This document shows positions 45,561 through 47,246 of a DNA stretch of 64,000 nt, one piece after another. The stretch is from Chitinophaga pinensis. GTDB lineage: Bacteria; Bacteroidota; Bacteroidia; Chitinophagales; CAMDFR01. The stretch covers positions 124,001 through 188,000 of the forward strand of contig CAMART010000003.1 of the NCBI GenBank assembly GCA_945860705.1, read 5' to 3'. Positions within the stretch are counted from its first letter, which is position 1, and each line of letters starts with the position of its first letter. The translations under genes and the position numbers were made by a program. The notes below the pieces were generated by a model. It was not told the origin of the DNA, did no database searches, and worked only from the letters and a program-made list of their open reading frames with translations.

Positions 45561-45777
45561 GTAATATTTATGTTTTACATTTCATATTTCAATTGATACA
45601 TTTAGGTTTTACAAAATAAATCATACACACCTCGATGGGTGTCTACACGCATCAAATTAGAATGGATATATATTATTAAGAATATCTATATAAAACTTTA
45701 TAAATGTTGTTCTATCTTTATTTAAATACGACTATAGTATATCTCAAAAAAATGGATATTTAATCGATATAATAATC
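45561..45777. other. Intergenic stretch before the repeat arrays
   Basis: AT-rich stretch with no gene. A short stem ACACC/GGTGT near 45627-45642 is not followed by a T run, so a terminator for the M16 gene is not evident. Confidence 0.5.
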
Positions 45778-45839
45778 GTGCATTTTCAAAATAGTATACC
45801 GTGCATTTTCAAAATAAGGTATAGTGCATTTTCAAAATA
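45778..45839 (+). repeat. First array of 23-bp-period repeats (three copies)
   Basis: Three copies of GTGCATTTTCAAAATA start at 45778, 45801 and 45824, exactly 23 bases apart, with 7-base variable spacers. The core ATTTT-C-AAAAT is a palindrome. At 45845, 21 bases after the start of the third copy, lies TAATTTTTG, one T longer than a TAnnTTTG box. Confidence 0.95.
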
Positions 45840-45990
45840 GATATTAATTTTTGATAAAAATTTCAAAAAAAATATATATCAAATTTCATCTTCCTAAAAA
45901 ATGGTATTTATTTTACATAAAAGAATATATTAATATCATAATAGATTGATTTACTATGTTTTAAAAAAAACAATAATAAAATAAAATATC
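45840..45990. other. Spacer between the two repeat arrays
   Basis: About 151 bases of very AT-rich sequence without a believable ORF. It may be a promoter region copied together with the array. Confidence 0.5.
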
Positions 45991-46052
45991 GTGCATTTTC
46001 AAAATACATAGTAGTGTATTTTCAAAATATAGTATAGTGTATTTTCAAAATT
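45991..46052 (+). repeat. Second array of 23-bp-period repeats (three copies)
   Basis: Copies start at 45991, 46014 and 46037, again exactly 23 bases apart. The first is identical to the copies of array 1, and the second and third have GTGTATTTTCAAAAT. The last copy ends 5 bases before the TATATTTG promoter box. Confidence 0.95.
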
Positions 46053-46057
46053 AGTAG

Positions 46058-46065
46058 TATATTTG
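46058..46065 (+). promoter_or_regulatory. -7 box of the DUF4143 ATPase gene
   Basis: TATATTTG is a perfect TAnnTTTG box, 20 bases before the ATG at 46086. The third repeat of array 2 occupies the spacer just upstream of it, so a protein bound there would block or assist RNA polymerase. Confidence 0.65.
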
Positions 46066-46085
46066 TAGAGAGAAAAAAAAACAAA

Positions 46086-47246
46086 ATGAGTATTAGAAGA
46101 ATTATCAAAAAAGAAATGGATATTTACAAAAAAAAATATCCAATATTGGCAGTCACGGGTCCTCGTCAATCTGGTAAAACGACTTTTCTCAAAACTGAAT
46201 TTTCTGATTACATATACCTCAATATGGAAAATCCAGACTTGAGAAATTATGCAGAAAAAGACCCAAATGCTTTTTTGAAACAATATGATAAATATATAAT
46301 ACTTGATGAAGTACAAAGAGTCCCTTTTCTATTTTCGTATATACAAGCCAAAGTAGATAATGATAAAATAATGGGTCAGTATATTTTATCTGGTTCTCAA
46401 AATTTTCATTTATTACAAAATATCACGCAGAGTTTGGCTGGTAGAGTGGCGCTATTTAAACTCTTGCCATTTGATTTAGGAGAAATGAAAAGTGCCAAAC
46501 TATTGAATAAAGACTTTGCGTACAACTTGCAAAAAGGATTCTATCCTGCAATATACGATAGAGATATTCCGTCTAAAGTATTTTATTCAAACTATATACA
46601 AACGTATATAGAAAGAGACTTATCTGATTTGATACATGTGAAAGATTTGAAATTATTTAGAAATTTTATTCTCTTATGTGCTGCTAGAGCTGGACAACTA
46701 CTCAATCTAAATAGTATGGCAAACGAGTGTGGCATCTCACAACCAACAGCCAAAGCTTGGATATCAGTATTAGAAACTAGTTATATTGTATTTCAGTTGC
46801 AACCATACTACAAAAACTTTAATAAACGCATTACCAAGAGTTCAAAACTATATTTCTATGATTGTGGCTTGCTCTGTCATCTACTGAAAATAAAAGATGC
46901 AAATGCTATACGCACGAGTACACATAAAGGAAATCTATTTGAAAATTTTGTAGTTTCTGAGTTTGTAAAAAATAATTATCATAAAAATCTACTGCGAGAT
47001 ATATGGTTTTGGCGCGATGCTGTGGGGCATGAGGTAGATTTGATATGGCAAGACGATGAGCAACTAAACTTGATAGAAATAAAAGCATCTGAAACTATCA
47101 TGAGTGATATGTTTAAAGGCTTACATTATTTTGAAAAAATAGCACCTGAATTAGTAAAAACAAAAACACTCATACATACTGGTGATTTTAATCAAAATAG
47201 AACGGATGCAAAAGTTACGAGCTGGAATATTGTAGAGAAAATTTAA
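46086..47246 (+). CDS. AAA ATPase with DUF4143 (nuclease-like C-terminus)
   Basis: A 386-residue cytoplasmic P-loop ATPase of the AAA_14/DUF4143 type. Walker A is TGPRQSGKTT (25-32), Walker B YIILDEVQR (71-75), and an arginine/sensor stretch ILSGSQNFHLL follows. A helix-turn-helix-like segment (SMANECGISQPTAKAWISVL) lies in the middle. The DUF4143 end has EVDLIW...LIEIKAS (about 318-334), spaced as in PD-(D/E)xK nucleases. Family function is not established. It is preceded by two repeat arrays, which suggests it may regulate itself. Such genes are often scattered and variably present among related genomes; I have not tested this here. A bidirectional terminator follows. Confidence 0.9.
   Translation: MSIRRIIKKEMDIYKKKYPILAVTGPRQSGKTTFLKTEFSDYIYLNMENPDLRNYAEKDPNAFLKQYDKYIILDEVQRVPFLFSYIQAKVDNDKIMGQYILSGSQNFHLLQNITQSLAGRVALFKLLPFDLGEMKSAKLLNKDFAYNLQKGFYPAIYDRDIPSKVFYSNYIQTYIERDLSDLIHVKDLKLFRNFILLCAARAGQLLNLNSMANECGISQPTAKAWISVLETSYIVFQLQPYYKNFNKRITKSSKLYFYDCGLLCHLLKIKDANAIRTSTHKGNLFENFVVSEFVKNNYHKNLLRDIWFWRDAVGHEVDLIWQDDEQLNLIEIKASETIMSDMFKGLHYFEKIAPELVKTKTLIHTGDFNQNRTDAKVTSWNIVEKI

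Follow-up and report, generated by a model that had tools for sequence, protein, structure and literature searches.

DUF4143 proteins (COG1373) are listed as a phage-defence candidate, PDC-S01, which is reported to hold fourth place by frequency among prokaryotic defences, with validation pending for most such candidates (PMC12988326). A gene of this family lies in the DNA analyzed here, a stretch of 64,000 nucleotides from Chitinophaga pinensis (GenBank assembly GCA_945860705.1, contig CAMART010000003.1, positions 124,001 to 188,000; hereafter the window). It is an AAA_14-DUF4143 gene at 46086-47246, preceded by six copies of a 16-nt repeat arranged in two triplets, all on the + strand. The protein matched PADLOC model PDLC04790 (PDC-S01; E 2.1e-96); PDC-S01, DUF4143 and COG1373 thus stand for the same protein family as the window gene, and the defence label is that of a candidate. 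An earlier reading of the locus from sequence alone (the sequence-only reading) had stated that DUF4143 proteins have no established role; experimentally this holds, but the family does figure among the phage-defence candidates. We consider it probable that the gene has in these repeats a private cis-element, one that controls the gene's own promoter and may also mark a mobile unit.

Several described systems resemble this locus in part. The control of repE by RepE and iterons on the F plasmid (PMC13028717) appears alike in its direct arrays, the inverted repeat at its own promoter and the second array behind the gene. The window locus, in contrast, is not a replicon and encodes an AAA-type ATPase with a nuclease, and the likeness is one of working, not of membership. 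Archaeal Orc1/Cdc6 and related ATPases (2qby, 2qen and 2fna) share the ATPase and the winged-helix fold, but the window protein adds a PD-(D/E)XK nuclease, and there is no evidence for an origin. Repetitive extragenic palindromic (REP) sequences with their associated tyrosine transposase (RAYT) genes, and the logic of solo long terminal repeats, offer a parallel for palindrome-bracketed genes and for gene-free solo copies. Here, however, the palindrome family discussed below has 0-3 copies per genome, not hundreds, and the gene encodes an ATPase-nuclease and not a Y1 transposase. Assignment to the REP/RAYT systems, which calls for a Y1-HUH transposase gene together with many dispersed palindromes, was therefore rejected. 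Although the protein family is already known, its repeats, brackets and solo copies appear to be without precedent: our literature search, which did not extend to subscription journals and preprints, found no report of them for DUF4143, COG1373 or PDC-S01.

Repeats over the promoters of DUF4143 genes

Exact copies of GTGYATTTTCAAAAT numbered six in the window, and an exact-match count over the whole 2.94-Mb genome returned the same six. With up to two mismatches allowed, 10 matches were found in the window, compared with 1.4 on average and at most 5 in shuffled sequences. The final copy, GTGTATTTTCAAAATT, occupies 46037-46052 and is separated by 5 bases from the box TATATTTG at 46058-46065, which bears out the perfect TAnnTTTG that the sequence-only reading had placed 5 bases past the last repeat. 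This is the sole TAnnTTTG on the + strand of 45561-46085, at a window rate of about 0.001 per base. A related box had also been proposed for the first array. Its offset is correct, as TAATTTTTG starts 21 bases past the start of the third copy, exactly as the box of array 2 does, but it carries an extra base and is a degenerate box only. It is possible that array 1 represents an earlier copy of this promoter element. An old copy of the gene before array 1 was considered and rejected, since similarity to the 5' end of the gene scored 14.5 against a shuffle maximum of 15.

Paired close copies of the window repeat were searched for in about 85,000 species genomes and, in a second scan, in 398 genomes of the order. 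The larger search returned one record, a Flavobacterium metagenome-assembled genome (L012) in which at least four copies, at a spacing of about 23 bp, lie directly 5' of an orthologous AAA_14-DUF4143 gene and are followed by TATATTTG. One further array was found among the genomes of the order (L185, genome G456), before an apparently decayed AAA_14-DUF4143 gene. Read by eye, this gene retains an ATG and a damaged Walker region, and it still codes for ENPDMRNYA, where the window protein has ENPDLRNYA; tblastn did not detect the decayed gene behind the L185 array. As far as the sequences tell, every known window-type array precedes an AAA_14-DUF4143 gene or its apparent remains. At positions 1430-1800 of L185, the array seems to outlive its decayed gene.

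For the family as a whole, homologues were taken from genomes of the order and of the phylum (120 genes extracted, 119 scored), and the 160 nt ending at +10 were scored for a strong repeat, direct or inverted, with z ≥4 over dinucleotide shuffles. Such a repeat was present upstream of 71% of the 119 homologues. Of 90 stretches taken upstream of other genes, 10% had one, and for the homologues themselves the same test gave 22% on the downstream side and 1% within the gene. When the proteins were clustered, 43 of the 57 clusters at 55% identity, and 14 of the 22 at 45%, had the element. Direct arrays repeat every 22-23 bp in the window subfamily, every 32 bp in a distant one and, where palindromes stand in tandem, every 37 bp; the first two periods are near two and three helical turns. 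Palindrome arms measured roughly 12-24 nt. The upstream element was also present in other phyla. By eye, the same arrangement was recognized on plasmids of Azotobacter, Moraxella, Asticcacaulis, Acinetobacter, Tateyamaria, Treponema and Emticicia; in Thermus HB8 and Rhabdochlamydia it was not clearly visible on the same inspection. A profile scan of contigs classed as viral (IMG/VR) yielded 24 relatives (L189-L212), several of them with upstream repeats, and the viral scan with the window protein as single query gave no match.

The elements are private to their genes. Besides the window gene, the genome holds two clear full-length paralogues, and the three genes have three unrelated elements: one paralogue has the palindrome GGACAAATTCGGAATCTAATTCCGAATTTGTCC, the other AATATTGCGGATTG repeats, and exact copies of each occur only beside their own gene. 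Lying over its own promoter and private to its gene, the element has the properties of a self-regulated operator. Across homologues, element similarity increased with protein identity. The palindromes of two Moraxella plasmids (L135, AAACCTAG..CTAGGTTT; L165, AATCCTAG..CTAGGATT) differ in both arms, and the change is symmetric, so that dyad symmetry is kept.

The position of the element relative to the promoter was also compared. When seven arrays are lined up by their -7 box, their final repeat unit starts about 18-22 nt ahead of it. Where a palindrome has a visible box, the box mostly starts -5 to +13 nt from the palindrome end; many other palindromes end near the start codon, at a median of 8 nt. 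This near-fixed spacing suggests that the element covers the RNA polymerase site, and with this geometry a DNA operator is a better match than a leader RNA. The operator-promoter module put forward in the sequence-only reading is thus strongly supported by the comparison, in which the repeats follow the gene family, are gene-private, keep a near-fixed distance to the -7 box and accompany a predicted winged helix. A self-bound operator is the reading that we favour.

Downstream copies, solo copies and empty sites

Downstream of 14 of 92 genes, the upstream element recurs in near-identical form, versus 3 of 368 swapped controls. Twelve of the 14 begin no more than 31 nt past the stop codon, while those of L064 and L066 are at +385; at L030, arrays lie on both sides of the gene. 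The palindrome family GGACAAAT..ATTTGTCC was present in 18 genomes among the 398 searched. Its loci comprise six bracketed genes, four genes with one copy seen, seven solo copies (no gene within 1.5 kb) and one copy beside a 74-aa remnant. For a second family, TTTACAAATT..AATTTGTAAA, the gene was bracketed at three loci and had an upstream copy only at one, and two copies were solo. Within a pair, the variable arms of the two ends agree fully or almost fully; from gene to gene they differ, also where the genes share a genome (G030 and G407). Left of the bracketed gene of L215 (genome G096) stands a second, unrelated palindrome, AACTTTTCCAAAGTTTCGAACTTTGGAAAAGTT, perhaps a solo element from a different subfamily.

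Some relatives, the junctions of which were read from draft genomes, have the same junction with and without the gene, as a mobile unit would; this was found for them and not for the window gene. In G000, XerD is followed by the gene between two palindromes and then by a PI-PLC-like gene. Its congener G002 has a single palindrome between XerD and the PI-PLC-like gene, and AAA_14-DUF4143 genes were not detected in that genome. In genus g38, an exonuclease III junction exists without a palindrome (G083 and G384), with one (G061, G389 and G050) and with the palindrome-gene-palindrome unit (G096), the solo copy of G050 bearing a symmetric change on both arms. A tree of the six g38 genomes does not settle the order of these three states, and the solo copies may be scars or targets alike. 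The bracketed and solo states suggest that the element marks the ends of a mobile unit as well. They also raise the question, through the three-state junction, whether these genes are true defences or self-spreading elements counted as defences. On the sequences compared, promoters of the family are overlaid by direct arrays or inverted repeats that are particular to each gene, part of the genes also have the element downstream, and solo copies stand at gene-free sites.

Transfer of such genes has been noted before, COG1373, the COG of such predicted ATPases, being listed among genes that gut genera share through transfer (PMC10782964). On pTT27-type plasmids of Thermus thermophilus, a site that adjoins a CRISPR array and the palindromic repeats of the DUF4143 gene either holds that gene (L133, L160 and L161) or lacks it (L157-L159). 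On Agrobacterium plasmids (L132, L162 and L164), a DUF4143 cassette starts at TTCGATTCCCATCAAG, which is like the 3' end of a tRNA, in differing contexts, and an empty site is seen in L163.

The encoded protein

Both Pfam domains pass their cut-offs (PF13635 DUF4143, 165 bits against 28.1; PF13173 AAA_14, 100 bits against 27). An AlphaFold2 model with a predicted local distance difference test score of 91.3 and a predicted template modelling score of 0.90 divides the protein into an ATPase, a winged helix and a nuclease (Table 1). The helix-turn-helix-like segment pointed out in the sequence-only reading, residues 210-229, takes in part of the helix 208-215, a turn and most of the recognition helix, after which comes a two-strand wing; in this confident model it is predicted to belong to a winged helix-turn-helix. 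Foldseek ranked the archaeal ATPase 2qen and a Cdc6/Orc1-origin DNA complex at the top, with 2qby at E 1e-5, and VIA-align gave Z 15.3 for 2qen (root-mean-square deviation 3.2, 245 aligned) and Z 14.2 for 2fna (3.3, 244 aligned). With an AAA+ fold followed by a winged helix, the protein can be classed with the Orc1/Cdc6-like ATPases. A sequence search of the PDB with the single window protein returned chance matches only.

The nuclease domain alone matched the folds of McrC, Can2, Hjc (Holliday-junction resolvases) and the R2 endonuclease, with modest E-values, and combines the PD-(D/E)XK fold with the catalytic E/D...E-x-K residues. Residues G25, G30, K31, D74, E75, E286, E316, D318, E331 and K333 are conserved in 98-100% of homologues, so that an active ATPase and an active nuclease are expected.

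Table 1. Positions, in the window, of the AAA_14-DUF4143 gene, its predicted domains and the repeats and boxes ahead of it
Feature	Position	Strand	Remarks
Array 1, three copies of GTGCATTTTCAAAATA	45778..45839	+	Starts 45778, 45801, 45824; 23-bp period
Degenerate -7-like box TAATTTTTG after array 1	45845..45853	+	One base longer than TAnnTTTG
Array 2, three copies of GTGYATTTTCAAAATW, proposed operator	45991..46052	+	Starts 45991, 46014, 46037; 23-bp period; equivalents in orthologues
-7 promoter box TATATTTG	46058..46065	+	Near-fixed position in seven arrays
Gene, 386-aa AAA_14-DUF4143 protein (PADLOC PDC-S01)	46086..47246	+	
ATPase domain	46086..46595	+	Residues 1-170; Walker A G25..GK31T, Walker B D74-E75
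Winged helix-turn-helix	46647..46856	+	Residues 188-257, recognition helix 219-231; predicted structure; weak profile match to RacA helix-turn-helix at 202-228
PD-(D/E)XK nuclease domain	46926..47177	+	Residues 281-364; E286, E316, D318, E331, K333

Proposed control and mobility, and the alternatives

How a private element could serve both ends can be pictured as follows. Several protomers would bind it through the winged helix, as a row on direct repeats and as a dyad on a palindrome. The bound protein would keep RNA polymerase out of the -33/-7 region, which would hold expression of the nuclease itself at a low level. Less certainly, the same recognition may guide the nuclease to element copies during gain or loss of the element-gene-element unit, leaving solo copies behind; the nuclease would be a natural candidate for cutting at the ends of the unit. 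Judged from sequence comparison, then, the gene probably controls itself through its tag and may move with it. Self-regulation had been suggested at the outset, and the operator-promoter comparison agrees with it, but the brackets and solo copies go beyond simple self-regulation.

Some observations weigh against this joint role in control and mobility. About a quarter of the clusters lack the element at the threshold used. The window gene itself has no downstream copy, and its empty site was not found in sister genomes, where the neighbours differ. Partial rank correlations with element similarity were 0.07 for the ATPase, 0.05 for the helix-turn-helix and 0.03 for the nuclease; since this domain comparison did not single out the winged helix, recognition by the winged helix is something that we infer. 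Finally, on plasmids of Thermus, Agrobacterium and Moraxella the gene sits in differing contexts with junctions off the element, and transfer by other routes must therefore also happen.

Taking the joint role further, we suggest tentatively that PDC-S01 genes could be minimal mobile genes, in which one protein reads a private repeat, represses itself, uses its nuclease at the copies and leaves solos. If true, they would form a class not described before. Each member has its private DNA site, which can be predicted from sequence and offers a direct way to approach the protein's binding target and its control.

It is possible, if rather doubtful, that the gene is a single-gene defence system that represses itself via the element, the brackets and solos being by-products of operator duplication and of deletions through ordinary recombination between the duplicates, and the protein having no role in movement. 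The PADLOC match to PDC-S01 (E 2e-96), the place of the family among the most common defence candidates listed and the pairing of a nuclease with an ATPase, known from several defences, speak for this explanation. The candidate listing, however, rests on co-location, which fits mobile genes equally well, and the precise duplication of the element around the gene is left unexplained.

Far less probable is an iteron-like site, at which the protein would act as an initiator of the replication or segregation type. The Orc1/Cdc6-like fold would suit such a role, as would the direct array, inverted repeat and downstream array that recall repE of the F plasmid; but these genes are single in chromosomes, several per genome and often absent, and they carry a conserved nuclease. 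We think it very unlikely that the inverted repeats act as RNA hairpins, either attenuators or terminators. Some palindromes do abut the start codon, and some intergenic solo copies adjoin stop codons, but direct arrays, the window's included, are not simple hairpins, many elements lie ahead of the -7 box and hence outside the transcript, and Rfam gave no family at its cutoff. The least probable explanation, an operator for an unrelated host regulator, would suit the promoter position, as any repressor would, but is hard to reconcile with a motif found at one genome site, with three paralogues that have three unrelated elements, and with elements that track the gene family across phyla.
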